From a virus, in IMG/VR virus record IMGVR_UViG_3300026320_000015, positions 1 through 41,044 of that record: 41,044 nucleotides of DNA, one strand, 5' to 3'. How positions within the stretch are numbered: position 1 is the first letter of the stretch; each line of letters starts with the position of its first letter. Positions 1,702-39,852 of this stretch are shown here, one piece after another. Both the position numbers and the translations under genes were made by a program. The notes beneath the pieces are model-generated. The model searched no databases. It was not told the origin of the DNA and was given only the letters and a program-made list of their open reading frames with translations.

Positions 1702-2586
1702 TTATTCGGCGGCGCAGAACATGTCGCTCTGGCTCTCTATCGCGTAGAGGTTCCTGCATGCTTGCTGCCAGTAGATTTCTTTGAGTTCGACGCCAAGGAA
1801 CTTGCGGCCCAGCTTCAGGGATTGGGTGCCCTCAGACCCTATTCCCATGAACGGCGACAGGACGACGTTGCCGGGATTCGACCACATGATCAGCGCTCGG
1901 TCGATCACATCTAATTGCAGAGGACATAAATGACGCTCATCACGCTCTGACCTAGCCACCTTGACGTTGAGGACGTTGGTCTGGTTGACCGTCATCCATA
2001 CGGGCGATGCCCACTCCTGCCACTGTTCGAGCGGGAAATCTTCCGGCGTGTGAGAGATGAGTTCCGGGTTGTCGCCAGGCTTGATGAACGTCATCAGGTA
2101 GTCCGGCATGCCCCCTCGTGACTTCGAGCTATCCTTCTGCAACTGCTTGTATAGGAGGCCGACGTGCTTCGTCCGCGTCATCTCCACGACCGGGCATTTC
2201 CATATCGTCCTGCGCCCGTGGAGTATCCACCCGGCGTCCTCGTGGATGCGGATGATCTGCCCGGAGAAATCTTTGATGCCGATCGCGCCGTCCCTCCACT
2301 TCGTCATCGGCAGGTCGGAGCAGTGCACGGCCGTCAGGCGTCCAGGCATCGTCACGCGGAACTTCTCGCGCACCATGTACGCGTAGTGCTCGGCGAACTC
2401 GGCGTCGGTGGAGTTGCCCATGTCGGCGGCAGAGGCGGAGTACACGAACAGCGACCCGAACGGTGGGCTGTAGACGGAGAAACCGACGCTGTCTGACGGC
2501 AGCTGCGATATCACGTCCACGCAGTCGCCGTGCACGGCCTGCCAATTCGTTCCCTTTTCCGAGTTCAGGCAGCGGATTCCAGCCAT
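1702..2586 (-). CDS. DNA (N4-cytosine or N6-adenine) methyltransferase
   Basis: 294 residues. It has the permuted order of beta-class DNA amino-methyltransferases: catalytic motif IV, SPPF, at residues 40-43, and the SAM-binding FMGIGSEGT motif near the C-terminus, followed by LGVEL. An SPP-type motif IV is common in N4-cytosine enzymes, but that does not settle the base modified. There is no partner restriction endonuclease nearby, so self-protection from host restriction is the likely role. Its start overlaps the end of the helicase gene upstream by 22 bases, suggesting coupled translation. Confidence 0.88.
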   Translation of the reverse strand: MAGIRCLNSEKGTNWQAVHGDCVDVISQLPSDSVGFSVYSPPFGSLFVYSASAADMGNSTDAEFAEHYAYMVREKFRVTMPGRLTAVHCSDLPMTKWRDGAIGIKDFSGQIIRIHEDAGWILHGRRTIWKCPVVEMTRTKHVGLLYKQLQKDSSKSRGGMPDYLMTFIKPGDNPELISHTPEDFPLEQWQEWASPVWMTVNQTNVLNVKVARSERDERHLCPLQLDVIDRALIMWSNPGNVVLSPFMGIGSEGTQSLKLGRKFLGVELKEIYWQQACRNLYAIESQSDMFCAAE

Positions 2587-3959
2587 GGTGCGAGCCTCGC
2601 GTTGTGGGTTGGATTATAAGCTTCTTTCCTGGTCGGAGATTTTCCTGCAGCGCGCAACATCGCTCCGCGCATGGCCTCCTTCATCGCGATGTGACTGCCA
2701 GCCTTGCGGTCGATGACGCGCCCGATCTCGGTCTCGCCCTCGGCGACGATCAGGTGCACGATGACCTTGCGCTGCTGGCCGAACCTCCAGCAGCGACGGA
2801 CGGCCTGGTACCACGTCTCGTACGAGTAGGATCGCCCCAGGAACGCCATGCGCGCGCAGTGGGACCAGTCTGACCCGAAGCCTATCATCGACGGCTTGCC
2901 GATGAGGACATCAACCTTCCCCAGCGCGAAAGCCGTCAACTTCTCCTCCTTCTCGTCGATCGACTGCGATCCGCGGACCTCGGTGGCCCGCGGGATCGCC
3001 CTGCGGACCGCGTCGGCCTCGTAGTCCGTGTCCACCCACACGATCCACGGCTGGTCCTTCTCGACCTCGACGACCGCCGCCGCCACCTCGGCGCGGGCCT
3101 CGCTGGTCTGCCGCTTGACCTCGTGGATGGTGGTGGCACTCAGGGTCGGCGCGCCGAACAGGTCGGCGAGGTCCCTGTCGATGCGACTGTCGCGGGCCCG
3201 GTGCCTCACGACCTCGAACGGAGGAAGTATGAACCCGTCGTCCCTGTCGCCCAGGTCGGACGGCTTCTCGGCCATCCTCGCCCACGATGCCATCCAGTCC
3301 CAGAACGCCGTCACTGCGTGACCCTTCAGTCGCCACTCCTGCGACGCCGTGGAAGTGTCGTTGATGAAGAACCTGGACAGCATCTCGTTGGCGGACATCA
3401 CGTCCAGGAACTCGGCGTAGTTGCCAAGCTCCATGTGGTCGTTCGGCGCTGGCGTCGCCGTGGCGACCGCCTTGAACCTTATCCCGTTGAATATGCTGAT
3501 CAACGCCTGCGTCGTCTTCCCCGTGAACGACTTCAGGATCGATGCCTCGTCCAGGGATATCGCCCCGAAAGACAACGGGTCCAGTTTGTCGACTCGGTCA
3601 TAGTTGCAGATGTTGATCATCGGCGGCCCGACTACCGACGACTGATCGCGGACGACCCTGGCCTCGTAGCCCCACTTCGTGGCCCGCCGCTGAGTCTGCC
3701 ACGCAACGGCCAATGGCGTCAGGATCAGAGCCGGTCTGTTGGTGGTCTCGATGATCTTCTGGCACCATTCAAGTTGGCACTCAGTCTTGCCAAGACCCGT
3801 ATCGAGGAACAGGCCGGAACACCCGGCGCGAAGCATGAAATCCACGGAGTGGACCTGGAATGGGAAGAGATGGGAAGCCAACTCCGGGACCTTTCCCAGA
3901 CCGCGCTCAGTCGCTCGAATAGCTTTGCTGGCGAGGAACGCGGCATATTCCTTGTTCAT
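2565..3959 (-). CDS. SNF2-type SF2 DNA helicase/translocase
   Basis: 464 residues. A FPFQ entry motif is followed by a Walker A-like DTGLGKTE at 53-60, an LDEAS motif II at about 136-140, TATPAPN motif III at 167-173 and a C-terminal motif VI region with QAVRRCWRFGQQRKV. This order is typical of SNF2-like translocases carried by phages. Such enzymes move on double-stranded DNA in replication, recombination or modification. It overlaps the methyltransferase gene, and pairing of the two functions is frequent in phages. The start ATG at 3959 has only a weak ribosome site. Confidence 0.88.
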   Translation of the reverse strand: MNKEYAAFLASKAIRATERGLGKVPELASHLFPFQVHSVDFMLRAGCSGLFLDTGLGKTECQLEWCQKIIETTNRPALILTPLAVAWQTQRRATKWGYEARVVRDQSSVVGPPMINICNYDRVDKLDPLSFGAISLDEASILKSFTGKTTQALISIFNGIRFKAVATATPAPNDHMELGNYAEFLDVMSANEMLSRFFINDTSTASQEWRLKGHAVTAFWDWMASWARMAEKPSDLGDRDDGFILPPFEVVRHRARDSRIDRDLADLFGAPTLSATTIHEVKRQTSEARAEVAAAVVEVEKDQPWIVWVDTDYEADAVRRAIPRATEVRGSQSIDEKEEKLTAFALGKVDVLIGKPSMIGFGSDWSHCARMAFLGRSYSYETWYQAVRRCWRFGQQRKVIVHLIVAEGETEIGRVIDRKAGSHIAMKEAMRGAMLRAAGKSPTRKEAYNPTHNARLAPWLESAA

Positions 3960-4113
3960 GTTCGGATGGCCTGGCTAGAGGATGTAATTTGTGTGGAACC
4001 CATCCATGTCCTCCCGCCGCTATCCGCATACGAATTTCCCGGAAAGCTTCGAGGATGGATTTTCTCAAATCATCTTCCGCGTCATATTTTGGATCGTCAA
4101 CACCGTCGCTCAT
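3907..4113 (-). CDS. Hypothetical protein overlapping the helicase start
   Basis: 68 residues from ATG 4113 to a stop at 3907, so the last 17 codons overlap the helicase gene. The first 45 residues are acidic then helical (KYDAEDDLRKSILEAFREIR) and look like real coding. The end is Ser- and Gln-rich and less convincing, as it lies in the overlap. No family recognised. It fills the gap between two well-supported genes. Confidence 0.45.
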   Translation of the reverse strand: MSDGVDDPKYDAEDDLRKSILEAFREIRMRIAAGGHGWVPHKLHPLARPSEHEQGICRVPRQQSYSSD

Positions 4114-6004: not shown

Positions 6005-6316
6005 CTAATCCCGCGCGGGACGCGGCGTCAACAGTGCGGTGAATTCTCCCCATGTCGACGCTTCCACTGGCCGCCAATGCGGGCACGCCCGTCCCAGCCA
6101 AATTCTGTCCGTCCCGATGCATCTACACCCGTCCAGCGCGCATGTCCCATAATTGTCGGCGATGTAGTCGGACAGGCCGTAGTGATTCGGTGCGTGCACG
6201 GTGTTGACCTCGACGCGATACCATGACGAAATGCAGGGACTAGGTGCGATGGGGACCTTTCCCGTCGGGCACCGCGGGGCTTGACGGCTCCCAGAAAGAC
6301 ATTCTCCTGACCTCAT
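6005..6316 (-). CDS. Small Cys-containing hypothetical protein
   Basis: Up to 103 residues, with the start unsure. The convincing part begins near VHAPNHYGLSDY and holds a compact CALDGCRCIG cluster and one further Cys-His (ACPHW), a plausible metal site. Upstream codons are Pro- and Ser-rich and may not be translated; a GTG about 40 codons in is an alternative start. It is the outermost leftward gene, downstream of a possible promoter at 6386-6414. Confidence 0.4.
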   Translation of the reverse strand: MRSGECLSGSRQAPRCPTGKVPIAPSPCISSWYRVEVNTVHAPNHYGLSDYIADNYGTCALDGCRCIGTDRIWLGRACPHWRPVEASTWGEFTALLTPRPARD

Positions 6317-6385
6317 CGCGCTCCCGTACAGAGCAGGTCAAGGATGTCGACCCGCGGAATCAATCCCTAGCGTTAGCGCTGGCAC

Positions 6386-6414
6386 ACTATACGAGACGTT
6401 GCGGATTCACAGAA
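6386..6414 (-). promoter_or_regulatory. Possible leftward promoter
   Basis: Read on the minus strand, a good -10 (TATAGT at 6386-6391) stands 17 bases after a poor -35 (TTCTGT at 6409-6414). Next to it lies a GC-rich inverted element around AGCGTTAGCGCT (about 6371-6380), which could be an operator. The region 6317-6461 holds no convincing gene, so it is the natural place for the promoter of the leftward DNA-metabolism block. Confidence 0.3.
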
Positions 6415-6461
6415 TTATCAACAGCACAATGCTGGTTGACGAACGCATGACGGTGGGATTA

Positions 6462-6502
6462 CAAAAAGAAACCGGCGGGAGGAGTGACCCTCGACCGCCG
6501 GT
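6462..6502 (-). terminator. Rho-independent terminator, minus strand
   Basis: ACCGGCGG (6471-6478) pairs with CCGCCGGT (6495-6502), with an inner GAGG/CCTC extension. On the minus strand the stem is followed at once by TTCTTTTTG (6462-6470). This is the classic layout of an intrinsic terminator. No protein gene ends just upstream of it, which supports a short non-coding transcript reading into it. Confidence 0.65.
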
Positions 6503-6542
6503 CTAAACTGGATGATGCCTTGCCGGTAGCCATCCAGCACTT
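6462..6542 (-). ncRNA. Candidate phage small RNA of about 80 nt
   Basis: On the minus strand a promoter-like pair (TTGACG at 6571-6576, 16-base gap, TATGTC at 6549-6554) would start RNA near 6542. The transcript would contain a first hairpin (CTGGATG 6508-6514 paired with CATCCAG 6531-6537) and finish at the terminator at 6462-6502. A promoter, a compact two-hairpin body and a U-tract with no good open frame fit a small RNA. The role is unknown; it sits between two divergent operons. Expression is inferred only. Confidence 0.4.
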
Positions 6543-6548
6543 GAGAAC

Positions 6549-6576
6549 GACATAGCATCTATATCGTTCCCGTCAA
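6549..6576 (-). promoter_or_regulatory. Candidate sigma70-type promoter of the small RNA
   Basis: Minus-strand TTGACG and TATGTC boxes separated by 16 bases. The -35 matches 5 of 6 consensus positions. It lies just upstream of the two-hairpin region that ends in an intrinsic terminator. Confidence 0.4.
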
Positions 6577-6824
6577 CCCCTAAAAATCCGGCAAAAACCA
6601 AGGCGCGCGTTGAGGCCTCGCGTGTGCTGCTGCTGATCACACCACAACCACCAGGGACAAGATCCCGGGATCGAGGAAATGTGCCCATGTTCCAGACATT
6701 TGCCCTCGCGCACGCAGGTAACCCCCTCTTGCTTTCTTCCTTTGTTGTTTTGCCTCCCCAAGAAGGGAAACAAGAGATGAAGGTAGGAAGAGAAGGGAAA
6801 CTCTGTACTGGAGAGCAATCTTTC

Positions 6825-6853
6825 TTAAACAAACTAGCAGGGGAACGTATACG
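6825..6853 (+). promoter_or_regulatory. Possible rightward promoter before the helicase operon
   Basis: TTAAAC (6825-6830) and TATACG (6848-6853) with a 17-base spacer, about 65 bases ahead of the first rightward gene. Each box is only a partial match to sigma70 consensus, so this is a weak call supported mainly by position. Confidence 0.3.
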
Positions 6854-6918
6854 CGCGACCCGCGCGCGCGACACCAGTTTTGGACCAACGGTTGCAAATC
6901 GGTGAGGGAGGCGAAGCG

Positions 6919-7092
6919 ATGAAGGTGTCCAACAGGTTCGTGGCGATAGCGTTGCGGCCGCGGTCGCCAGACGAGGTGACGCTCGACTTCAAGATCACGG
7001 GCAAGACGATCACGATCACGAGGGACGAGCTGCGGCACCTCTACGTGATGATGGCGCAGATGAACGACACAATGGCGGGGGGCAAGGGATGA
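6919..7092 (+). CDS. Small hypothetical protein ahead of helicase
   Basis: 57 residues from an ATG at 6919, chosen because GGGAGG lies just upstream. The sequence (MKVSNRFVAIALRPRSPDEV onward) looks like a small mixed alpha/beta protein with a final helix. Its stop overlaps the helicase ATG (ATGA at 7089-7092), so the two are translated together. No family recognised. Confidence 0.65.
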   Translation: MKVSNRFVAIALRPRSPDEVTLDFKITGKTITITRDELRHLYVMMAQMNDTMAGGKG

Positions 7093-8597
7093 ACAGGGAA
7101 TTGTGGGAACACCAGCAGCAAGGATTGGACGACTTGCGGGCATCGATTCAGCAGGGTGTGAGGCGGGTCGCGTGTCAGAGTCCCACCGGGAGCGGCAAGA
7201 CGCTGATGGCGGCGGCGATAATCGACGGGGCGATCCGCAAGGGCAACCGGATGGCGTTCGTGGTGAACGCGATCGGTCTCATCGACCAGACGGTGGAGGC
7301 GTTCTACGCCGAGGGGATCCGGGACATCGGGGTGATCCAGGCGAACCACTCGATGACGGACTGGGCGAAGCCGGTGCAGGTGTGCTCGATCCAAACGCTA
7401 AAGTCGCGGCGGGCATATCCAGAGGCGAAGATCGTCGTCATTGACGAGTGCCACTCCCTCCACGATTTCCACAAGCAATGGCTGTCTGATCCAGACTGGC
7501 AGAACGTTCCTTTCATTGGATTATCGGCGACGCCGTGGTCCAAGGGGCTCGGCAAGTACTTCCAGTCGCTGCTGGTCATAGCCACGACGCAGGAACTCAT
7601 CGACAAGGGGTTCCTGTCCAAGTTCAAAGTGTACTGCACCGGGCAGCCGGACTTGTCCGAGGTGAAGGTCGTCGCCGGCGAGTACGTCAAGGATCAACTG
7701 TCGGACGCTATGTGCGGCGGGACGCTAACGGCGGACATCATTGACACGTGGAAGCGCATGTGGGGGAAACCGAACACGCTGGTGTTCTGCGTGGACAGGA
7801 AGCACGCCGAAACAGTGCACTACCGGTTCCAGGAGGCGGGCGTTCAGTCGGCGTACCAGGACGGCGAGACGCCATCGGCAGAGCGTCAGGAGATCAAGCG
7901 CGGGTTCCACAACGGACAGATCGACGTCGTGTGCAATATCGGCACGCTGACGACGGGCGTGGATTGGGACGTGCGCTGTCTCGTGCTAGCGCGGCCGACG
8001 AAGTCCGAGATACTGTACACGCAGATTATTGGACGGGCGCTGCGTACTGCCACCAACAAAGACCACGCTCTAATCCTGGACCATTCGAACTCGACGATGG
8101 AACTCGGGATCGTTACTGACATCCATCATGACCACCTGGATGACGGGAAGCCGAACGGGAAGGCTGACGCGGTGAAGCGCAAGAAGCCGCTGCCGCGGGC
8201 GTGTCCGGACTGCGCGGCGATTGTTCCGCGGCTCAACCGCACGTGCACGGAATGTGGCCATATGCTCCCACTGGCGTCGGGCGTGGTCGAGCGTAACGGC
8301 GTGCTGGTCGAGTACGTCCCGGGTGCGGTGCAGAAGACGGGGCCGGCGCTGAGCCGGCAGTACACGTCGGCCGAGAAGCAGCTATTTTACTCCCAGCTGC
8401 TACAATACTGCCGCGAGAAAGGCAGCCAGGACGGCCGCGCGGCGCACATGTTCCGGGAGAAGTTCGGTGTATGGCCGAACTACATGCAGAAGATACCGAC
8501 GGAGGTCTCGTTCGAGGTTGCGCAGTGGATTCGTTCGCGCAACATTGCGTTCGCGAAGTCTCAGAAGCCGAAGCCGTTCCTGCAAGCGGCAGAGTGA
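7089..8597 (+). CDS. SF2 DEAD/DEAH-type helicase with zinc ribbon
   Basis: 502 residues. Walker A SPTGSGKT at 31-38, DECH motif II at 119-122, SATP motif III at 146-149 and QIIGRALR motif VI at 312-319 give a full SF2 helicase core. After it comes a zinc ribbon (Cys372/375 and Cys386/389) and a helical C-terminal region. The arrangement resembles phage replication or recombination helicases related to the UvsW/RecG-like and type III restriction groups. A role in phage DNA replication or repair is inferred from the family. It is separate in type from the SNF2-like helicase of the leftward block. Confidence 0.9.
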   Translation: MNRELWEHQQQGLDDLRASIQQGVRRVACQSPTGSGKTLMAAAIIDGAIRKGNRMAFVVNAIGLIDQTVEAFYAEGIRDIGVIQANHSMTDWAKPVQVCSIQTLKSRRAYPEAKIVVIDECHSLHDFHKQWLSDPDWQNVPFIGLSATPWSKGLGKYFQSLLVIATTQELIDKGFLSKFKVYCTGQPDLSEVKVVAGEYVKDQLSDAMCGGTLTADIIDTWKRMWGKPNTLVFCVDRKHAETVHYRFQEAGVQSAYQDGETPSAERQEIKRGFHNGQIDVVCNIGTLTTGVDWDVRCLVLARPTKSEILYTQIIGRALRTATNKDHALILDHSNSTMELGIVTDIHHDHLDDGKPNGKADAVKRKKPLPRACPDCAAIVPRLNRTCTECGHMLPLASGVVERNGVLVEYVPGAVQKTGPALSRQYTSAEKQLFYSQLLQYCREKGSQDGRAAHMFREKFGVWPNYMQKIPTEVSFEVAQWIRSRNIAFAKSQKPKPFLQAAE

Positions 8598-8625
8598 CGC
8601 CACAGTGATTGTATTTTGTGGCCTA

Positions 8626-8656
8626 TTGACAACCGTTTTGATTTTACGTCATGTAA
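8626..8656 (+). promoter_or_regulatory. Promoter/operator of the HTH-GHKL cassette
   Basis: A perfect -35 TTGACA (8626-8631) lies in the gap after the helicase gene. The matching -10 is weak, but at its expected place sits a small inverted repeat TTAC-gtcat-GTAA (8644-8656), a possible operator for the HTH protein encoded downstream. A GGAG precedes the first gene at 8681. Confidence 0.4.
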
Positions 8657-8680
8657 GTGTCCCGAATATAGGAGACTCAC

Positions 8681-22815: not shown

Positions 22816-23661
22816 GTGACCCAGCGATGCACGATAATTGCCGAGGTAGGCGTCAATCACGACGGCGACCTCGGCAAGGCGCTCCACCTCTGCGACGCGG
22901 CGAAGTATGCGGGCGCGGACATCGTCAAGTTCCAGACTTATTTGCCGGATCTCAGCATCCGCAAGGGCAAGGATTATGACCTGTTAGTCAGGCTGGCATT
23001 ACCGCTTGAGGATTTCTGGCGCATCTCGAAGCACTGCAAGGAGATAGGCATCGAGTTCTGCTCGACGCCAGATGATCTCCTAAGCCTCCAGTTCCTTGTT
23101 GAGCACTGCGGCGTGAAGCGCATCAAGCTCGGGTCTGGCTCGCTGCTCTACGAGCCGCTGGTGGACGCGGCGTTCGATATCGGGTTGCCGGTCTTGCTCA
23201 GCACCGGGATGGCGACTGAAGATGAGATCATGTCCGCCATAAGACGACAGGAGGATCGCTATGGCTATGATCGTGAATTACCAGATGATTGGGCCACGAT
23301 CATGCATTGCGTTAGCCTCTATCCGTGTCCTCTTGAACTGGCCAATGTGAAAGCCATCGAGAGTATGCAAGATAAGTTCGGTGATGTCGGCTATAGCGAC
23401 CACACGATCGGCAACTACGCGATCCTCTCCGCGGTAGTGTTGGGTGCGACTGTTGTCGAGAAGCACTTCACGCTCGACAACGAGGACGCGGGACCTGACC
23501 ATTGCATGTCGGCGACTCCGGAGCAATTCGAGCGGATGGTCATGAAGATCAGGCAGACCGAGATCGTCTTGGGCCACGGCCGCAAGGAGCCCAGCGAGGA
23601 GGAGTTGGCGATGATCGGGCGCATCCGGAAGGACGCGGAAGGGTTCCAGCCGGGGCTATGA
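22816..23661 (+). CDS. neuB: NeuB-type nonulosonic acid synthase, core domain only
   Basis: 281 residues from a GTG at 22816. The TIM-barrel signature is complete: IAEVGVNHDGD (8-18), KFQTY (38-42), FCSTPDD, KLGSGSL, LSTGMATEDEI, HCVSLYPCPLELANVKAI, GYSDHTIGN and the metal/substrate region VVEKHFTLDNEDAGPDHCMS. This family condenses phosphoenolpyruvate with N-acetylmannosamine or a 2,4-diacetamido hexose to form sialic or legionaminic acid. The usual C-terminal SAF (antifreeze-like) domain of about 60 residues is missing. Which sugar is made cannot be decided; the LegC-like neighbour favours a legionaminic-type product. Confidence 0.85.
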   Translation: MTQRCTIIAEVGVNHDGDLGKALHLCDAAKYAGADIVKFQTYLPDLSIRKGKDYDLLVRLALPLEDFWRISKHCKEIGIEFCSTPDDLLSLQFLVEHCGVKRIKLGSGSLLYEPLVDAAFDIGLPVLLSTGMATEDEIMSAIRRQEDRYGYDRELPDDWATIMHCVSLYPCPLELANVKAIESMQDKFGDVGYSDHTIGNYAILSAVVLGATVVEKHFTLDNEDAGPDHCMSATPEQFERMVMKIRQTEIVLGHGRKEPSEEELAMIGRIRKDAEGFQPGL

Positions 23662-23852
23662 TGATGGCGAAGCCTGATCCATGGCACAACGATCCAAAAC
23701 TCCACGACATTGAGATGCGTCTTTGGCGCATTGAGAACGCGTTGATATTTTTATTGCGTTCTCACATCGAGCCGAAGTTCCGACAAGACGGATTACCTGA
23801 CGACAATGCTGACAAGATGCAGATTGATACTATTTTGCATGGGGAGAGATGA
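23658..23852 (+). CDS. Small hypothetical protein
   Basis: 64 residues from an ATG overlapping the NeuB stop, with three ATGs in a row. Acidic and helical (LHDIEMRLWRIENALIFLLR) with a short charged tail. A spacer gene between two sugar genes. No domain recognised. Confidence 0.55.
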   Translation: MMMAKPDPWHNDPKLHDIEMRLWRIENALIFLLRSHIEPKFRQDGLPDDNADKMQIDTILHGER

Positions 23853-23855
23853 GAG

Positions 23856-24539
23856 ATGAAAGTTCTGGGGGTCATCACCGCGCGCGGAGGTTCGAAGCGA
23901 CTTCCCAACAAGAACACCGCCATGCTCGGCGGGAAGCCGTTGATCGCGTGGTCGATCGAGGTGGGACTGGCGACGTGCCACCATGTGGTCCTGAGCACCG
24001 ACAGCGAGTTCATCGCCGGAGTGGCCAGGCAGCATGGCTGCAAGGTCATCATGCGCCCGCCTGAGCTGTGCGGCGACGCCGACCACGTGAGCGTCGTCAT
24101 CCATGCCGCCAGGAACGCCGAGGACGGTCCCTACAACGCCGTGCTGCTCCTCCAGCCGACGTCGCCGTTCCGTGACGAACGGGACGTGGTGGCAGCGCAG
24201 AAGGTGATGGAGGACACAAGCGCCGACTCGGTCATCTCCGTCGTCGAGTTTCAGAAGTCGGACACCCTGTTCACACTCGGCCATGCCAACAGGATGCGGG
24301 GTGCCGGTGAGAGGGATACGGTCTACACGCCGAACGGGGCCATCTACCTCATCAAGTGGGATCACCTGCTGGAGAAGGGCGACTGGTATGACCCGCACGC
24401 TTACGCCTACGTCATGCCGCCGGAGCGCTCGCTCGACATCGACACGCACGCGGACTTCGAGGCAGCCAGGGCGATGCTGGACGACCAGGGGCGGTTCGAC
24501 CCGGGGGTAATCGCCAAGAAGGTGACGGCACCGGCATGA
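23856..24539 (+). CDS. neuA: CMP-nonulosonate cytidylyltransferase (NeuA/LegF type)
   Basis: 227 residues starting MKVLGVITARGGSKRLPNKN. ITARGGSKRLPNKN (7-20) is the CTP-binding signature of the CMP-sialate synthetase family; LLQPTSPFR near residue 100, PNGAIYL and DIDTHADFEAA complete the core. It activates a 9-carbon acid with CTP so that a glycosyltransferase can use it. The gene lies 3 bases after its small neighbour, in the same run as the NeuB-type and aminotransferase genes. Full length for bacterial NeuA-type enzymes without an extra domain. Confidence 0.88.
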   Translation: MKVLGVITARGGSKRLPNKNTAMLGGKPLIAWSIEVGLATCHHVVLSTDSEFIAGVARQHGCKVIMRPPELCGDADHVSVVIHAARNAEDGPYNAVLLLQPTSPFRDERDVVAAQKVMEDTSADSVISVVEFQKSDTLFTLGHANRMRGAGERDTVYTPNGAIYLIKWDHLLEKGDWYDPHAYAYVMPPERSLDIDTHADFEAARAMLDDQGRFDPGVIAKKVTAPA

Positions 24540-24748
24540 GAGACCAAGTCGTTCAAGTTGATGAAGGATTTTCCTGTATCGTCGATGGGAAGTTGTTCGG
24601 TCCATATCGTTATAGGTCCGAGGCTGAAAATATGTTGTTCGCACTTAGGATAGCCTTGGATATGATGGGCGATCGCAATCCGAAGATGCTCATCAAGAAG
24701 GAGAGAGGAATTGTTCAGCGTCCAGGCGGTGGTGGACGCGGTTCTTAG
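24536..24748 (+). CDS. Small hypothetical protein
   Basis: 70 residues, coupled by ATGA to the cytidylyltransferase gene. A beta-rich start (FSCIVDGKLFGPYRYRS) and a helix (ENMLFALRIALDMMG) end in a basic, Gly-rich tail. Its end overlaps the aminotransferase start in another frame by 38 bases. Function unknown. Confidence 0.6.
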   Translation: MRDQVVQVDEGFSCIVDGKLFGPYRYRSEAENMLFALRIALDMMGDRNPKMLIKKERGIVQRPGGGGRGS

Positions 24749-25826
24749 TGTTACGGGGGGGCCAGCCAGCCACCACCGGCCGGTCGTCACCGACGAGGAC
24801 GTGCTGGCGATAGCGGACCAAGCCCGGCGGCTCGATTCCTACCACTACATCAACCTGCTGCAGGAACGGCTTAAGGACAAACTCCAGGTCAAGCATGCCA
24901 TCGCCGTTTCTAGCGGCACCGCGGCGCTGGAGTTGGCCCTGCACTTGGTGGGGGTGAAGCGTGGCAATACCGTGCTGCTGCCGACGCTCTCGTTCGTGGC
25001 CGCGGCTAACGCTGTCATCAGGGCTGGAGCAAAACCCGTTTTCCTGGACTCCAGCAAACATGATTTCGGGATCGATCCTCACCGGTTCGGAGAATATCTG
25101 GCGTGCAATGAACCACCGAAGGCTGTCATTACGGTTCATTTGCTAGGTCATCCATGCAAGATGTCAATCGTTAACGGATTGGCTGAAGCCTATGGCGTTA
25201 CCGTCATCGAGGACGCAGCTGAGGCTATCGGTTCGTCCATATCAGTTCACGCCTCCGACCGCTGGAAACTATGCGGTTCCTGGGGCGCAGTCTCTGTCCT
25301 CAGCTTCAACCTCAACAAAGTGGTGACGTCAGGCGGTGGTGGCGCGCTGCTGACGGACGACGATGAGTTCGGGGCCAGGGCGCAGCACCTCGCCACCACC
25401 GCCAGGGTCGCGCACCCGTGGCTGGTCGAGCACGACGCGGTCGGCTGGAATCACCGCATGCCGATGCTGTCGGCGGCACTGTGCAGCGAGCAGGTCAAGC
25501 GGTTGGACTACCTGCTGGCGGCCAAGCGCGGGCTCGCCATGGCCTACAAGGCGGCGATAAACGGGATGGACGGCGTTGCGTTTCACGAGGAGCCGGGCGG
25601 CACGTTCTCGAACTTCTGGATGCCAACGATCCTGGTACCTCCCGGGAAGCGCGACGCGGTGTTGACCGCATTGCACGAACGGGGGGTAATGGCCCGGGCG
25701 ATTTTCACGCCTATGCACCGGCTAAGGATGTACCGCCATGATGAAGATTATCCGGTTGCTGACGAGATTTTTGCGCGGGCGATCTGCCTTCCCGCAGGCA
25801 TCGAACTCGCCAGACGCTTCGCTTGA
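24711..25826 (+). CDS. DegT/DnrJ/EryC1 aminotransferase, LegC-like
   Basis: 371 residues from a TTG at 24711, chosen for the GGAGAGAGG site immediately upstream. PLP-enzyme marks: AVSSGTAALELAL (65-77), IEDAAEAIGS (166-175) and SFNLNKVVTSGGGG (198-211) with Lys203 as the probable PLP lysine; the last motif is close to the FNGNKIITTGGGG of LegC-type enzymes. LegC adds the 4-amino group to a UDP-4-keto sugar on the way to legionaminic acid. The C-terminal end overlaps the next small gene by 89 bases. The sugar specificity is inference. Confidence 0.82.
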   Translation: MFSVQAVVDAVLSVTGGPASHHRPVVTDEDVLAIADQARRLDSYHYINLLQERLKDKLQVKHAIAVSSGTAALELALHLVGVKRGNTVLLPTLSFVAAANAVIRAGAKPVFLDSSKHDFGIDPHRFGEYLACNEPPKAVITVHLLGHPCKMSIVNGLAEAYGVTVIEDAAEAIGSSISVHASDRWKLCGSWGAVSVLSFNLNKVVTSGGGGALLTDDDEFGARAQHLATTARVAHPWLVEHDAVGWNHRMPMLSAALCSEQVKRLDYLLAAKRGLAMAYKAAINGMDGVAFHEEPGGTFSNFWMPTILVPPGKRDAVLTALHERGVMARAIFTPMHRLRMYRHDEDYPVADEIFARAICLPAGIELARRFA

Positions 25827-25971
25827 ATATGAGGTAGCGCTGACGCGGCTTGAAAACTTCCAGAAGGCGCTCGATGAAGGCTACCAAATCAATTGGGGCA
25901 AGGTCGATCGCGCCTATGAAGAGAAGTTCGGCGAGACGCCACAGGAGACTTGGAAGCGATATCATCGCTGA
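25738..25971 (+). CDS. Small hypothetical protein overlapping the aminotransferase
   Basis: 77 residues from ATG 25738, the first 29 codons overlapping the aminotransferase gene in another frame. The C-terminal part (YEVALTRLENFQKALDEGYQ onward, ending TPQETWKRYHR) looks like genuine helical coding. The real start could be later. No domain recognised. Confidence 0.5.
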   Translation: MMKIIRLLTRFLRGRSAFPQASNSPDASLEYEVALTRLENFQKALDEGYQINWGKVDRAYEEKFGETPQETWKRYHR

Positions 25972-26045
25972 AAGGCCGCCGGCCGATGTTGACGCCGACT
26001 CGCGTTCCGTTGCTAGGGTTATCCACGGAGATGAGGAGAACACCG

Positions 26046-26231
26046 ATGAGGGAACCGTTTATTGAGCAGACTCCGTCCGGAGGTTGGATCTACGGTTGGA
26101 GATATCCGCAGCCGTGGTGGAAGTTCTGGGCCAAGGATCGAAGGTCGTGTTATCCGGCTAAAACACACGAAGAAGCCATAGAAGGCTTTGCCGAACTTAA
26201 GGCGCTGTATGAACGGCTTGGAGTGCTCTGA
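26046..26231 (+). CDS. Small aromatic-rich hypothetical protein
   Basis: 61 residues from ATG 26046 with AGGAG 10 bases upstream. It has WIYGWRYPQPWWKFWA, a Trp-rich stretch, then a helix (TKHE-like HEEAIEGFAELKALYERLG). Could bind sugars or membranes through its Trp residues. No family recognised. Confidence 0.6.
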   Translation: MREPFIEQTPSGGWIYGWRYPQPWWKFWAKDRRSCYPAKTHEEAIEGFAELKALYERLGVL

Positions 26232-26253
26232 TCTAACGAAGAGGAGGACGAAC

Positions 26254-26481
26254 ATGGGTTGGATATCGAGGATCATACCGAAGTGGCTGCGGGCTCAGCC
26301 GTCCGAGACGATCAGGCCGGAGATGCCTAAGCCGTACGGATCGAACAACCATCTGAACGCGCCGTCGCAGCCATCGCGGGCGTCTCTGCCGATACCGCCG
26401 GGACCGATACTGCAGGGCGGCAACGTTGGTTCGACAGCGTCGATCGTCGATAACCCGTCGTGGCCGCAGAAAGGGAACTGA
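26254..26481 (+). CDS. Small Pro/Ser-rich hypothetical protein
   Basis: 75 residues with a GAGGAGG site. The start MGWISRIIPKWLRAQPSETI is amphipathic, the rest Pro/Ser/Asn-rich and probably unfolded. Its stop overlaps the NeuC-like ATG (TGATG). No family recognised. Confidence 0.55.
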   Translation: MGWISRIIPKWLRAQPSETIRPEMPKPYGSNNHLNAPSQPSRASLPIPPGPILQGGNVGSTASIVDNPSWPQKGN

Positions 26482-27719
26482 TGCGCATCGCCCTCATATC
26501 TGGCAGCCGGTCGGACCGCAACGCGCTGGTCATGGTTAGAGACAAGCTGTTCGAATCCGGTCATAGCGTAACGTGGATGGAACTTGGTCCTGCGGCAATG
26601 GTGGGGCATCGCGTATTGGCTTTGCCGAAAGAGCCGTGGTTGCCAATAACTGCAGTAGAGAAGGCACTCGTGTGGGTCAGTCTGCAGGGGATCGGGGAAG
26701 ACGGAAACAGGTTCGCCGATCTGGTAATCCTGCACGGTGACCGCCATGAAGTTCTCGGTGCGGCAGTTGCCTGCAATGTGATGGGCATCCCGATCGCCCA
26801 CATCGGCGGTGGCGACATCACTGAGGGTAGCCAGGACGATAGCTTCCGCCACGCCATCACCAAGCTGTCGCACCTGCACTTCGCGTCGAACCAGGACTCT
26901 GCCGACCGGATCGTCCAGATGGGCGAGGAGCCGGACCGCGTCCATGTCACCGGGTGCCCGGGGATCGATATGGTGATGGCGACGCCGACGTTGAACAAAG
27001 CTGACACGTTCGCGGCGGTCGGCCTATGCGCCCCCTCAGCTACCGAATCCCAATCCTATTGGATGACCAAGGAATGGCGCGAGATGGGAGAGCGTCCAGC
27101 GCCCCAGAGAAGCCTCCTGGTGCTGTTTCACCCGAACACCCTGGGTGACGCCGCTTCCGACCTAGAGGCTCTCAGCGTGGCCCTGGCGCGCAGGACGGAG
27201 GCATTGGTGCTGCTGGGGCCTAACGCGGACGCCGGAGGCGACCTCATCCGCCGGGAGTGGCAGCGCCTCGCCCAGAACCGTCCCGACACCGTCTACCACG
27301 ACAACGTCGAGCCGCAGGTGTTCTACTCGCTGCTGAAGTGGTGCGACGTGCTGATCGGGAACTCGTCGGCGGGGTTCTACGAGGCACCGTGCTTTGGGAT
27401 TCCCGTCGTGAACATAGGTGATCGGCAAGAAGGACGATCTCGTCCATGCAACATGTTGTTTCACCCAAATTTAGGACCGGAAGATATTGCTGGTGCCATC
27501 GATTATACGATCAGGGCTACTCCTGCACCGATTGAACTGAGAGAACCTGTCACAAACACCTACGGCGACGGCCACGCTGCCGAGCGCATCGCCAAGGTGA
27601 TAGGCGGGATCAGTGACCATAAATCATTGCTGCGTAAGAAATTCTTTGGATATATCGACTTGGTCCATCACACGGAGGTCGAGGCGCTAGCATCATTCAA
27701 CAAGAAGGTAACGAAATGA
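26481..27719 (+). CDS. neuC: Hydrolysing UDP-GlcNAc-type 2-epimerase (NeuC/LegG type)
   Basis: 412 residues from ATG 26481. The GT-B fold marks are LVILHGDRHEVLGAA, IPIAHIGGGDITEGSQDDSF followed by RHAITKLSHLHF, VTGCPGIDMV, VLFHPNT and the C-terminal GNSSAGFYEAPCFGIPVVNI followed by GDRQEGR. All are typical of NeuC/LegG-type epimerases, which turn UDP-GlcNAc (or a bacillosamine relative) into ManNAc-type sugars and UDP. This makes the substrate of the NeuB-type synthase. The gene is full length. An upstream GTG at 26460 is less likely. It ends by ATGA overlap with the next gene. Confidence 0.88.
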   Translation: MRIALISGSRSDRNALVMVRDKLFESGHSVTWMELGPAAMVGHRVLALPKEPWLPITAVEKALVWVSLQGIGEDGNRFADLVILHGDRHEVLGAAVACNVMGIPIAHIGGGDITEGSQDDSFRHAITKLSHLHFASNQDSADRIVQMGEEPDRVHVTGCPGIDMVMATPTLNKADTFAAVGLCAPSATESQSYWMTKEWREMGERPAPQRSLLVLFHPNTLGDAASDLEALSVALARRTEALVLLGPNADAGGDLIRREWQRLAQNRPDTVYHDNVEPQVFYSLLKWCDVLIGNSSAGFYEAPCFGIPVVNIGDRQEGRSRPCNMLFHPNLGPEDIAGAIDYTIRATPAPIELREPVTNTYGDGHAAERIAKVIGGISDHKSLLRKKFFGYIDLVHHTEVEALASFNKKVTK

Positions 27720-34571: not shown

Positions 34572-34843
34572 TGGTGTCGAGATCTGGAAAAGCCAAAAAG
34601 ATAGCCGCTGCTCAGGAAGCCTATTTGGCCGCCACTGCTGGGCGTACCGCTGCAAGCGACAGGGTTGTGGCAGCCGAGCATGAACTCATGAGTGCCAGGG
34701 CTGAGCGTGAGCGGTATGAACAACAGGTAGATGATGCGATGACTAGGTTATCCCGTTTGGGCGCGCAGTCGGAGCCGATTTATCTGAGCAACCATCCTAA
34801 AATAATGTTGGACGCACTCCTGCCATCGATAGAGTTGCCATGA
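34571..34843 (+). CDS. Small coiled-coil protein
   Basis: 90 residues from an ATG overlapping the portal stop (TGATG). A long Ala/Glu/Arg-rich coiled coil (SDRVVAAEHELMSARAERER) with a short helical tail. It ends by ATGA overlap with the radical SAM gene. It may be a small head-associated or accessory protein. No family recognised. Confidence 0.55.
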   Translation: MVSRSGKAKKIAAAQEAYLAATAGRTAASDRVVAAEHELMSARAERERYEQQVDDAMTRLSRLGAQSEPIYLSNHPKIMLDALLPSIELP

Positions 34844-36450
34844 GACCTCTCCGCATAGCGCTAGGTGACCTGAGTTACTTCACCGAAGGCAACTTCGGGA
34901 ACCTATACGTCCCGCTGAACCTCGGCTACCTCGCGTCTTACGTGAAGGCTAAGTTCGGCAGGGACGTTGAAATAAAACTGAAAAAAAAACCTTCGGAAAT
35001 GCTTTCGCTGGTCCGGGACGAACGTCCGGACCTGATCGGCCTGTCCGCCTATTACTGGCAGGAGGAACTCAACAAGCTGTTTGTGCGCAAGGTGCGCGCC
35101 ATGACGGGCTATCACCCGATGATAGTCATCGGAGGCCCGTCAGTTGATAGCGACCTCGCCGAGCAGGACGATTACCTGCGTCGGCACCCAGGCGTGGACA
35201 GGCTGGTGGTCAACGAGGGCGAGGATGGCCTCGCCACGGTCGTGGGGACGCTGCTGGGAGGTTCTGATGCCTCGGTCGCCATAACCCACCCCGAGCGCGT
35301 CGGGCTCTCCACGGACCTCGCCAGCGTGCCATCGCCGTACTTGGACGGGACGCTGGACGAGTTCCTTAACGGGCCGTTCCAGCCGATGATCCAAACGTCG
35401 AGACTTTGTCCGTATACTTGCAGCTTTTGCGTGTCCGGAAAGAGCCGTGGCAAGCTGCGCGTCTTTCCGATGGAGCAGGTCAATGAGGAAGTCAAATTTA
35501 TTGCAAGTCGTTTCGCCGACAGACCTGACCACATCCTTTACATCGTTGACGAGAACTTCGGTATCCTCGGTCGCGACGTTGACGTGGCTAAGACCATCCG
35601 CGCAAGCATGGATTCGGCCGGCTATCCGAAGCGGGTATTCTACTACAACGACAAGCGATTCACCCAGACCAGCCGAGATGTCCAGGAAGTGCTAGGCGAC
35701 GCGTGCCACCACGGCGTCTGCCTGTCGCTCCAGAGCGAGAACCCGGAGACGCTCAAGGCCATCCGCCGCCGCAACTTGACCGACAACGACATCCGTTCGG
35801 CGATCGCGTGGGCCCACGGACTCGGGTTGACGGTCAGCACCGAACTGATCTTCGGCCTCCCATGCGAGACGCGGGCGAGCTTCCTGGCTCTGTTGGACAA
35901 GTGCGCGAGGCTCGGGTTCGACAAGGTGCAGTGCTACAACCTCATCGTGTTCGACGGGATCGAGATGAACCGGCAGGCGTACCGGGACGAGCACAAGTTG
36001 GTGACTAAGCGCCGGCCCATCAACGCGCATTCATTGGTGCTCAATGGCGAGGCGTGCGCCGAGACGGAGGAGGTTGTGGTTCAGTCCAGCAGCATTTCGT
36101 TCGACGACTACCGCCTCGTGCGGGCGATGAACGTGATGTTCCACGCGGTGTTCGTGCTGGGGGTGCACCGGGAGTTCTTCCGCGAGCTGGTGGACTCCGG
36201 GCAGTCGTTGACGGCGTTCTTCGAGCGGTTCTTGACGCCGATGTGTGATGATGACCCAATAGGTAATGCTCATTGCAGGTTCCTCTACGAACTGGACGCC
36301 GCGATCCGCAAGGAGTTAGGCGGCCACGCGCTTCACGATGGACGCGTGGTGAAGATTCAGCCGGTGTTCGCCAGTAAGCTGGCGAAGGCGACGTGGGTGC
36401 CGGAGGTGATAGCCAGGATAGCGCGGCAGCGGGTGGAGGTGGCGGCGTGA
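34840..36450 (+). CDS. B12-binding-type radical SAM enzyme
   Basis: 536 residues. Residues 1-130 are a Rossmann-like B12-binding-type domain (LNLGYLASYVKAKFG, IGLSAYYWQEE, IVIGGP). Then comes the radical SAM core with CPYTCSFC (Cys190, 194, 197), the CX3CX2C cluster site for a 4Fe-4S cluster, with YIVDENFGILGRD and a long C-terminal region. The usual DxHxxG cobalamin ligand is not seen, so the B12 use is uncertain. Such enzymes methylate or rearrange sugars, lipids or antibiotics. It is ATGA-coupled inside the head gene run; a role in glycan modification is inference. Confidence 0.82.
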   Translation: MRPLRIALGDLSYFTEGNFGNLYVPLNLGYLASYVKAKFGRDVEIKLKKKPSEMLSLVRDERPDLIGLSAYYWQEELNKLFVRKVRAMTGYHPMIVIGGPSVDSDLAEQDDYLRRHPGVDRLVVNEGEDGLATVVGTLLGGSDASVAITHPERVGLSTDLASVPSPYLDGTLDEFLNGPFQPMIQTSRLCPYTCSFCVSGKSRGKLRVFPMEQVNEEVKFIASRFADRPDHILYIVDENFGILGRDVDVAKTIRASMDSAGYPKRVFYYNDKRFTQTSRDVQEVLGDACHHGVCLSLQSENPETLKAIRRRNLTDNDIRSAIAWAHGLGLTVSTELIFGLPCETRASFLALLDKCARLGFDKVQCYNLIVFDGIEMNRQAYRDEHKLVTKRRPINAHSLVLNGEACAETEEVVVQSSSISFDDYRLVRAMNVMFHAVFVLGVHREFFRELVDSGQSLTAFFERFLTPMCDDDPIGNAHCRFLYELDAAIRKELGGHALHDGRVVKIQPVFASKLAKATWVPEVIARIARQRVEVAA

Positions 36451-36833: not shown

Positions 36834-37188
36834 AAGAGAGAAAGAATTTACAGCAAAGGAACTGGCTGAGTCCGTAGGTAGGCCGGTATCAAAGATCCAT
36901 GGATGGACGAAGGCTGGTTTTCTTTCAAAGTTTTACGGAAGACGGAAATATCACAATTCTGCCGTGGGTGAAGTTCTTCTCATCGATTGCCTGGAACGTT
37001 TGGGAATCGATCTGAAGTGGTCGAAACTTGCCTATCATCCATTCCCGTTGGACGGCTTTGTCGTCGTTGGCCGCAACAAATCAGGCAGCCACTACTGCCA
37101 CACGATGGCATCTATCAGAAAGTCTGATCTCGACCATCTCAGCGAGGTCACCATGATCATAAATGTCAACAGGCTTCGCCGTGGCTAA
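36793..37188 (+). CDS. MerR-like winged HTH protein
   Basis: 131 residues from ATG 36793 (a GTG at 36787 is an alternative). After a basic start, EFTAKELAESVGRPVSKIHG and WTKAGFLSKFYGRRKYH form a MerR-like HTH and wing, then a small C-terminal domain (DGFVVVGRNKSGSHYCH). It may be a regulator or, as in some phages, a small terminase-like DNA binder. Lower GC than the portal. Overlaps the Mu F-like gene by 26 bases. Confidence 0.55.
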   Translation: MAKQIRAARHKVAEREKEFTAKELAESVGRPVSKIHGWTKAGFLSKFYGRRKYHNSAVGEVLLIDCLERLGIDLKWSKLAYHPFPLDGFVVVGRNKSGSHYCHTMASIRKSDLDHLSEVTMIINVNRLRRG

Positions 37189-38350
37189 GATTGTCCGCGC
37201 GGCCCGCCACTACCAGCAGCGAAACGACCCGCTTAGGCGCATCGCCGACCGGGCGATCCCCGGCGTCAAGCGTGACCTCCTGGCGTCGCTGAAGGGGCTG
37301 CGGGAACTCATCCCCTCAGACGTGGCCGACAAATATGCGCGCCACGCCGACTGGACCGGGTTGAAGGACGCCGTCGACTGGCATCATTTCAGGGAATCTC
37401 TGAAGGGCGTGTTCGGGCAGATAGGCAAGGCGCGCGAGGCGGGGGCGCAGCACGGTGCAACACAGATCAATACGGCGTTTGCTCAGCGACGCCGTGCCGT
37501 CCGCTACCGTAAAGGCGAGCTAGCCCTAACATGGTATTGGGATTATGCGACTGATCCGCCTTTGCTGAAGTGCATCGATGATCCTTCCAAGTTGTTCAGC
37601 AAAGTCATTGAGAGAACTGAAGAGTTCAAGAAGGATGCCAACGACCAGTATGCCTTCGACCTCTACAGTCAGGAAGTCCAAGACGAGCTGCGCGCCGCCC
37701 AGGATGCCCTCATCGTCGGGCTGGAGCAGGATGTCCGCGATTCTATCGACGCCATCATCATGGATGCGGCACAGCAGGGACTAGGACCGGAGGAGATCGT
37801 CGACAGCATCCGCGACCTGATCGGGCTCACCGACAGGCAGGTTGCTGCCGTCGGCAACTACCGGTCCATGCTGGAGAACCTCGACCCTGGCGCGCTGGAC
37901 CGGCAATTGCGCAATGTCCTTGAGGACGACGTTGTCCAGCAGGCCATCGACGACCAGACTGATTTGGCCGCGGCGTACATCGACAAGATGACGGACGACT
38001 ATGTTGACAACTACCTGGATTATCGGGCCGAGACGATCGCTCAAAGCGAGGTGACTCGCGCGGTGAACGCAGGCCTCCAAGATTCTTACTCGCAGGCGAT
38101 CGATCGAGGAGTGTTCCCGTCCGAGGCGGTGCGGCAGTTCTGGCGCATCAATCCTGACGCTTGCGAGATATGCCAATCGATCCCGGACATGAATCCGGAC
38201 GGCGTTGCCATGGACGAGGCGTTCGACAGCATCGACGGGCCGCAGGACGCGCCGCCTGACCCACATCCGCACTGCTTTTGCAGCCTTGAAATTGTGACGG
38301 ACCTGGATATGGTCTCCGCCGACAGTGTTGACGATGGGGAAGCGGCATAA
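37163..38350 (+). CDS. Mu F-like minor head protein
   Basis: 395 residues. Long helical N-terminal part and then the head-morphogenesis region AETIAQSEVTRAVNAGLQDS, with CEICQS and PPDPHPHCFCSLE near the C-terminus, the CxxC...HxxCxC set found in Mu F/SPP1 gp7-type minor head proteins. These bind the portal and are needed for head assembly and DNA release. It normally follows the portal at once; here four accessory genes separate the two. The start ATG at 37163 overlaps the HTH gene. Confidence 0.82.
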   Translation: MSTGFAVAKIVRAARHYQQRNDPLRRIADRAIPGVKRDLLASLKGLRELIPSDVADKYARHADWTGLKDAVDWHHFRESLKGVFGQIGKAREAGAQHGATQINTAFAQRRRAVRYRKGELALTWYWDYATDPPLLKCIDDPSKLFSKVIERTEEFKKDANDQYAFDLYSQEVQDELRAAQDALIVGLEQDVRDSIDAIIMDAAQQGLGPEEIVDSIRDLIGLTDRQVAAVGNYRSMLENLDPGALDRQLRNVLEDDVVQQAIDDQTDLAAAYIDKMTDDYVDNYLDYRAETIAQSEVTRAVNAGLQDSYSQAIDRGVFPSEAVRQFWRINPDACEICQSIPDMNPDGVAMDEAFDSIDGPQDAPPDPHPHCFCSLEIVTDLDMVSADSVDDGEAA

Positions 38351-38416
38351 TAGCGGTCATCCATGGTCAAATGGAATCTAGACGCCTCACCGCTTACGTC
38401 CCGTAGGGAGGCAAAC

Positions 38417-39487
38417 ATGAGAATCATAGCCATCTTACTAGCCCTGTGGTCAGGGTGCGCAATAGCGGCAGAACTACCGCGGCCAAAGCCAGCGCCACCA
38501 GCTAAGCCGGCGGCCGCGCCTATGGTTGGTGGCCCGGTAGACGGCCTCGGGAGGGCCGGCATTGCGTTGTTCAATCAAGGTAAGGATGTGTTTAGTCGGG
38601 TTTTCACGCCAGAGACTGGACTGGGTCCGTTATTCAACAATGTCGGTTGCGCGGCATGTCACGAGGTTCCCGTAGTAGGCGGGTCAGGTGGTTTCAACGA
38701 AGACGATGTGGATGTCGAGCGCCACGCCGCCGCCGACGATCAACCGTCCTGTAACGAGTTGACCACGTTTGGTGGTCCTGTTTTCAGGGAGCAAGCAGTA
38801 CCGGGCGCAATAGTTCCCTCAATCCCCGGCAACGCAGGTGTGCGTATTGGCCTGCGCTCGACACCTGCCCTGTTTTCGTCCGGTTCAATTGACGCGGTTT
38901 CCGAGGAAACCATCAGCGACAACGCTAGGCGCAACAATGGCGGACGCGCCGCGAAGCTACCGAACGGTAAGATCGGAAAATTTGGACGCAAGGCGACTGA
39001 CCCGGATTTGGCTGGTTTCGTGCGTGGAGCATTCGCGACGGAACAGGGTATAGATTCCCCCAGCGAGATCAGCGAGACTGACCTTTTGCTGGCCACGTTT
39101 TTCATCGCCAATCTCGCGCCACCTGACGCGCAGGCAGATGCACAAGGGTCCAAAGTCTTTCACGATATAGGGTGCGCCAGCTGTCACATCCCCAGTCTTC
39201 CGACCGAGAAGGGGAAACATGCGTTCTTGTATTCCGACCTTCTGTTGCACGATATGGGGCCCGGCCTAGCTGATCTATGCAAGGGAGTGGCGGCGACCAA
39301 AGAGTTCCGCACCGAACCTTTGATGGGGCTGAGGTTTCGGTCCAGGTTCCTCCACGACGGGCGTGCAGAGCGTCTTTCCGCCGCGATCACGAGCCACGGA
39401 GGTCAGGGTCAAGCGGCGGCAGACAAGTTTGTGCGGTTGAATGAGCGGGATCGTAACGCTTTGATGAAATTCCTAAGCGGCCTCTAG
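38417..39487 (+). CDS. Exported di-heme cytochrome c, DHOR family
   Basis: 356 residues from ATG 38417, chosen for the GGGAGG site 6 bases upstream; an ATG 54 bases earlier is not needed. Signal peptide MRIIAILLALWSGCAIAA, a Pro-rich linker, then GLGPLFNNVGCAACHEVP with the first heme site C78-A-A-C81-H82 and GCASCHIPS with the second, C253-A-S-C256-H257. FLHDGRAERLSAAITSHGGQ (311-330) matches the C-terminal hallmark of di-heme oxidoreductase-like proteins. It needs a host with c-type cytochrome maturation and would act in the periplasm. A phage-encoded copy is very unusual. Confidence 0.85.
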   Translation: MRIIAILLALWSGCAIAAELPRPKPAPPAKPAAAPMVGGPVDGLGRAGIALFNQGKDVFSRVFTPETGLGPLFNNVGCAACHEVPVVGGSGGFNEDDVDVERHAAADDQPSCNELTTFGGPVFREQAVPGAIVPSIPGNAGVRIGLRSTPALFSSGSIDAVSEETISDNARRNNGGRAAKLPNGKIGKFGRKATDPDLAGFVRGAFATEQGIDSPSEISETDLLLATFFIANLAPPDAQADAQGSKVFHDIGCASCHIPSLPTEKGKHAFLYSDLLLHDMGPGLADLCKGVAATKEFRTEPLMGLRFRSRFLHDGRAERLSAAITSHGGQGQAAADKFVRLNERDRNALMKFLSGL

Positions 39488-39516: not shown

Positions 39517-39852
39517 ATGAGCAAAGAAGCTGACGACGCGGTTCTGGTCGCCCTCCAGCAGCACCACGGCACGATCATCCTGAACAATCCGTCGAAGGCG
39601 CTGATCGCCGTCGGCAAGGAGAATACCGAGCTTCACGAGGAGATGGACCGCTGCCACCGGGAGTTGGACATCTACCGCAACGCGCTGACCGTCATCGCCT
39701 ACCTGTCGTGGGTCGAGGTCGGAAGTGTGGACAGTGCTTTCGGCAAATGTCAGACTCTGGCAAAGGCAGCGCTGTCGCAGCTTCAGATGGCTGGTTCAGA
39801 CTTGGCGCTGCTTAGGCAGACCACCCAGAGGAAAACCGATGTCGGAAACTAG
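39517..39852 (+). CDS. Hypothetical protein
   Basis: 111 residues with AAAAGGAGA upstream. Helical, with a central coiled coil-like ENTELHEEMDRCHRELDIYR and a second helix pair. No membrane segment and no recognised family. Its end overlaps the coiled-coil gene at 39839 by 14 bases. Confidence 0.6.
   Translation: MSKEADDAVLVALQQHHGTIILNNPSKALIAVGKENTELHEEMDRCHRELDIYRNALTVIAYLSWVEVGSVDSAFGKCQTLAKAALSQLQMAGSDLALLRQTTQRKTDVGN

Follow-up and report, generated by a model that had tools for sequence, protein, structure and literature searches.

The stretch of DNA analysed here, hereafter the window, is 41,044 bases long and makes up an entire IMG/VR virus record, which is linear. A muF-like head morphogenesis gene, preceded by terminase and Mu-type portal genes, is followed by a gene for a di-heme cytochrome c of the DHOR family. 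The features of this locus are as follows (L006 to L009 are contigs of related phages).

37163..38350, + strand: head morphogenesis (muF-like) gene, upstream (PHROG 3517, E 1.1e-38)
38363..38387, + strand: remnant start of a small ORF (M-x-KWNLDA...), aligned with L009 4075-4099 and L006 8635-8654, both with the ORF uninterrupted
38405..38411, + strand: ribosome-binding site AGGGAGG (Shine-Dalgarno), read from the sequence; AGGAGG in the second phage, L008
38417..39487, + strand: DHOR gene, exported di-heme cytochrome c, 356 aa (PF06537 match, predicted structure, second phage copy)
38417..38470, + strand: signal peptide, aa 1-18, with an AxA-type site before Glu19 (MRIIAILLALWSGCAIAA/E), from the alignment and, as for all signal peptides here, by eye
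38648..38662, + strand: heme site 1, C78-A-A-C81-H82 (aa 78-82), invariant in 92 of the 92 DHORs compared
38750..38752, + strand: Cys112, partner of Cys288, a pair confined to one clade
38987..38989, + strand: Arg191, in the column of the bCcP/MauG inter-heme Trp (alignment)
39041..39043, + strand: Glu209, acidic, aligned with the bCcP/MauG distal Glu (alignment to 3o5c/1iqc)
39173..39187, + strand: heme site 2, C253-A-S-C256-H257 (aa 253-257), both Cys invariant, His in 91 of 92
39278..39280, + strand: Cys288, partner of Cys112
39395..39397, + strand: His327, predicted distal ligand of the C-terminal heme, invariant in 92 of 92, in a column that aligns with MauG position 294
39517..39852, + strand: small conserved phage gene, downstream (tblastn, 78-96% in L006, L007, L008 and L009)

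The reading frame is uninterrupted. An earlier note, made from the sequence, had described the product as an exported DHOR-family cytochrome and proposed a search against PF06537. The Pfam search bears this out, with a match of 97.5 bits (E 8.3e-28; cut-off 22) that covers the C-terminal part of the protein (profile positions 321-498), while the N-terminal heme region gives a weak match to the same profile (positions 45-78, 15.7 bits). DHOR is the sole Pfam family to match at E <= 0.001, and the bCcP family (CCP_MauG) does not appear. The NCBIfam profiles for hydrazine synthase gamma and for MauG match far under their cut-offs (18.4 bits against 443.85 for TIGR03791, MauG), and a PHROG search with the protein matched no family. 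All the residues that test for membership of the family are present: two CxxCH, Asp274, His278, HDG at 313-315 and His327. The strong ribosome site that had been noticed is indeed there, and in similar form in the second phage. An alternative start at an in-frame ATG (38363, 374 aa) was dropped: in L008 that frame is shut by a TAG, making 38417 the likely start. Within the signal peptide, Cys14 aligns with a Cys of the nearest bacterial homologues, some of which are lipoprotein-like.

An AlphaFold2 model built on a 72-row alignment (pLDDT 89.6) has MauG as its top PDB neighbour (Z 16.3, 241 residues, 3.5 A), with bacterial cytochrome c peroxidases (bCcPs) and YhjA (Z ~15.8) and hydrazine synthase gamma (15.6) further down; among the viral structures of BFVD nothing matched at E <= 0.001. 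The predicted fold is that of the MauG/bacterial cytochrome c peroxidase type. The ligands of the C-terminal heme appear to differ from those of both. When run on MauG, the DHOR profile scores 23.3 bits with the Y294H mutant and 18.6 with the wild type; in the mutant, profile positions 326-365 align with chain residues 256-295, and in the Tyr294 entries whose match spans this domain the alignment stops at chain residue 293. Profile position 364, that is His327, corresponds to MauG residue 294 if no gap intervenes, and the equal aligned lengths suggest that none does. The Tyr294 of MauG is thus replaced by His327, and the column aligned with the distal Met of classical bCcPs is likewise an invariant His. 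As His327 is both invariant and aligned to MauG position 294, the C-terminal heme is predicted to be bis-His (His257/His327), against His/Met in bCcP and His/Tyr in MauG. Elsewhere in the protein, the Glu209 column holds E or D in 90 of 92 DHORs and E in every viral copy, and the Arg191 column varies across the family (W 47, K 24, R 14). Cys112 and Cys288 are found together in exactly seven of the 92 sequences, all within the clade of the window gene; they look like a private pair of this subfamily, possibly a disulfide.

When 2.9 million viral contigs were scanned with the DHOR protein, one other contig came up, IMGVR_UViG_3300012923_000140 (L008), in keeping with the rarity in phages that had been claimed. 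Its DHOR protein is 95.5% identical in amino acids and occupies the same position, after the muF-like head gene where the earlier note had placed the window copy. The DNA of the two phages matches in blocks of 79-97% identity and their insertions differ; since they diverged in this way, a shared assembly is ruled out, and the identical gene order in an independent contig excludes an assembly chimera and upholds the view that the gene belongs to the phage genome. The two copies differ by 50 synonymous and 16 nonsynonymous substitutions (dS 0.21, dN 0.02, omega 0.095), in line with the omega of other phage genes (0.05-0.21, a comparison that excludes the radical SAM gene, whose row is out of frame and misaligned). 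By this measure, purifying selection is shown to act on the DHOR gene in both of these diverged phages.

The search of related phages, also proposed earlier, returned this one relative with the gene and three cleanly without it, so that neither a chimera nor a loss from all relatives, which would have refuted the earlier reading, is what was found. L006, L007 and L009, of the same phage group, retain muF (63-69% identical to that of the window) and the downstream genes; two of these three contigs are mutually identical over the region. At the DHOR site they hold an 80-aa ORF starting MSKWNLDAYVASLPDM or MAKWNLDA..., of which the window retains just the first 25 bases, so that the left junction lies at 38387. 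The remnant is interrupted by a TAG in L008, and there the right junction can be read as L008 11688-11691 = L006 9039. Because the three relatives without DHOR carry the small ORF in its place, the gene is inserted cargo, absent from close relatives. The DHOR gene has a third-position GC of 0.61, while the neighbouring phage genes that were compared range over 0.62-0.84. The L006 slot additionally contains an RLIG1-like RNA ligase domain, so the site seems to accept varied cargo. What lies here has the marks of an auxiliary or moron gene: host-like, inside a phage genome, missing in close relatives and conserved in one.

Other insertions and cargo were seen in these phages. L009 has an AP2/HNH endonuclease gene at the end of muF (3494-4009), followed by a second muF C-terminal piece, and the muF-like genes of L008 (9001-10542) and L009 (2125-3513) each hold an in-frame insert near aa 117; the position is shared, the sequences differ. 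Between portal and muF-like gene the window holds a B12-binding radical SAM gene (34840-36450) that is absent from L006, L007 and L009; the L008 counterpart (6214-8658) contains an intein, weakly matching HNH and inserted at the CxxxCxxC motif, that the window copy does not have, and in L009 the slot is taken by a different, apparently exported protein of 135 aa (991-1398). The portal gene of L006 (3618-6494) is split by an insert that resembles an intein and includes a homing endonuclease domain of the LAGLIDADG type, and tblastn finds the same split in L007. In the window itself, a cluster at 22816-27719 (NeuB-like synthase, cytidylyltransferase, DegT aminotransferase, UDP-GlcNAc 2-epimerase) suggests synthesis of a sialic-acid-like sugar, and the left end has two helicase genes on opposite strands (1702-3959 and 7089-8597) and a DNA methylase gene.

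The nearest bacterial proteins, about 39-48% identical, come from metagenome-assembled genomes of KSB1, Gemmatimonadota and Eisenbacteria; for the subfamily (L025-L028, L031, L132) the alignments give about 37-48% identity. The window lineage forms one clade with this subfamily (99/96 support) at the end of a long stem, about 1.4-1.5 changes per column to the phage pair; the Cys112/Cys288 pair, being confined to the clade, is evidence for this placement that does not depend on branch length. On this phylogeny the phage gene is a descendant of the Gemmatimonadota/KSB1/Eisenbacteria subfamily. The host is another matter: such DHORs are found in 58 of 298 Gemmatimonadota genomes at E <= 1e-25, close ones are present in Acidobacteriota as well, and the gene therefore does not assign a host. 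A prophage search with the portal protein matched none of the 298 Gemmatimonadota genomes, which taken alone says nothing of the host, and the window has no tRNA. A Pfam scan of 20 window proteins brought up no heme-maturation gene, so DHOR would need a host that makes c-type cytochromes.

The window gene has counterparts in other viruses. In no fewer than nine more IMG/VR contigs a complete DHOR adjoins genes for phage structure or replication, a lower bound given that the alignment-based scans rest on short patterns. With gene contexts read from our own ORF calls, the gene lies between terminase and portal in L108, immediately after sheath, tube and tape measure in L112, among tail genes in L114, near a tail fibre gene in L110 and L111 (L107 has the architecture of L111), next to head structural and internal virion protein genes in L118, and among replication genes in L109 and L119. 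A tenth case, L121, is given less weight, as it is a short contig with an adjoining terminase fragment; L106/L120 and L113, whose surroundings are not demonstrably phage, were left uncounted. Both CxxCH, Asp274, His278, HDG and His327 are kept throughout, with the single exception of an HDG-to-QDG change in one. On the tree these viral copies fall into at least three more groups, one of them also with two bacterial proteins. A single viral origin, with all viral copies in one clade, is rejected (p-AU 1.5e-4), as is a union of the window lineage with the L107-L112 lineage (p 5e-5), these AU values being somewhat optimistic since the tree was already known when the groups were defined. By this phylogeny, unrelated phages acquired DHOR genes several separate times. 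Seven viral DHORs were scanned against PHROG, and no family matched. In INPHARED the only match was to MT836197, an unannotated fecal record; weak and partial, at 23-28%, it was judged unconvincing as a phage DHOR. The libraries searched yielded no phage c-type cytochrome of the DHOR kind, and the literature searched did not describe a DHOR in any phage (subscription journals and preprints were outside its scope). A study of viral nitrogen-cycle genes did not observe cytochromes or other electron carriers in its phages (PMC8115048), and the viral cbb3 oxidase subunit I sequences found in marine viromes in 2012 belong to a different protein (PMC3474794). Taken together, we think it fairly probable that exported di-heme DHORs are recurrent, independently captured cargo of environmental phages, through which the host envelope is altered in its redox or iron chemistry.

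What would such a protein do? The earlier note had it keeping periplasmic electron flow or metal redox active during infection; the modelled fold and the residues favour instead an enzyme of the peroxidase type. After infection the gene would be transcribed together with the head genes; the protein would be exported via the host Sec system, its two hemes being attached by the host cytochrome c maturation system, and would act in the periplasm or envelope. There, H2O2 would be reduced at the N-terminal heme, with Glu209 as the acid of the pocket, and electrons would come from host cytochromes or cupredoxins by way of the predicted bis-His C-terminal heme; this division of roles between the hemes is carried over from bCcP and MauG. 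The benefit would be a peroxide-free envelope in the infected or lysogenised cell. Some Salmonella prophages carry periplasmic superoxide dismutases, and the logic would be alike. We see about an even chance that this late-region cargo is indeed an exported, H2O2-reducing di-heme cytochrome c of the peroxidase type, using host electron carriers. To be sure, Arg191 sits where bCcP and MauG have their inter-heme Trp, the operon partners of remoter bacterial DHORs indicate iron, and no firmly assigned reaction for the DHOR family was found in the literature searched. We place the peroxidase first, with iron handling as its main rival, a ranking held with middling confidence.

The rival would have DHOR oxidise or reduce iron at the surface or in the periplasm, in concert with host uptake of the imelysin/EfeO or Feo type, and so feed the infected cell. 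It draws on plasmid homologues in Azospirillum and Rhodobacteraceae, found in imelysin-DHOR-imelysin-DUF1513 operons, on Thermus plasmid homologues beside iron/hemin or siderophore ABC genes, and on the same-strand neighbours of the 74 bacterial DHORs scanned, which include imelysin (6), Rieske (7), FeoA/FeoB, an iron-dependent repressor and Nramp. We nevertheless find it rather unlikely for the phage protein: the closest bacterial subfamily (L025-L028, L031, L132) has no iron-type neighbours in its readable surroundings, which give no peroxide context either, and no iron gene was found among the phage proteins scanned. Improbable, too, is a selfish or neutral passenger of a mobile cassette, of no benefit to the phage. 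The cargo of the slot does differ among relatives, with an RNA ligase domain in one and an endonuclease inside the muF end in another, yet the scarcity of nonsynonymous changes between the two phages and the repeated capture of DHOR by unrelated ones speak against neutrality.

MauG-type enzymes oxidise protein side chains, and the place of MauG among the best structural matches, with a B12-type radical SAM gene nearby, raises the idea of an oxidase that modifies an envelope protein of host or virion, for example to change a receptor or shield the virion. This we hold very doubtful, as the position of Tyr294 is taken by His327, and the Y294H mutant of MauG loses both the bis-Fe(IV) state and TTQ synthesis; the MauG profile also scores far under its cut-off, and no substrate gene is evident. 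Random bacterial DNA or a chimera in a viral contig, for which the low third-position GC might speak, is scarcely credible in view of the independent contig with the same order, the low omega, the clean insertion site and the parallel cases in unrelated phages.

A secreted heme enzyme captured time and again by unrelated phages would imply that the redox or iron chemistry of the envelope limits infection or lysogeny in environmental bacteria; phages may repeatedly gain when the envelope of the host cell acquires extra redox chemistry. Most phage metabolic genes, to our knowledge, have cytoplasmic or photosynthetic functions; as the earlier note proposed, a phage DHOR is plausibly an auxiliary gene of a new kind. 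With it, viruses join a bacterial family, and genes, residues and an empty-site comparison are at hand for testing.

Among known systems, the closest is the DHOR family PF06537 itself, with which the window protein shares an HMM score over the cut-off, two CxxCH, LLHDMG, HDGRA, the invariant His327 and a complete C-terminal domain; it differs in being encoded by a phage and in being shorter than its nearest bacterial relatives, with loops deleted after residues about 175, 215 and 268. The Gemmatimonadota/KSB1/Eisenbacteria subfamily has the same Cys112/Cys288 pair and an RTEPLMGLRF-like block, whereas its members are bacterial, longer and outside phages. MauG, bCcP, YhjA, BthA and hydrazine synthase gamma resemble it in predicted fold (Z 14-16), two heme c sites and a distal acid; by contrast with the Tyr of MauG or the Met of bCcP, the phage protein has a predicted distal His, at ~17-22% identity. 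The DHORs of other phages (L107-L112, L114, L118, L119, L121) are likewise complete, yet of separate lineages. Salmonella prophage SodC is also an exported oxidative-defence enzyme carried by a phage, but a Cu/Zn enzyme with known host and role, where the phage DHOR is a cytochrome.
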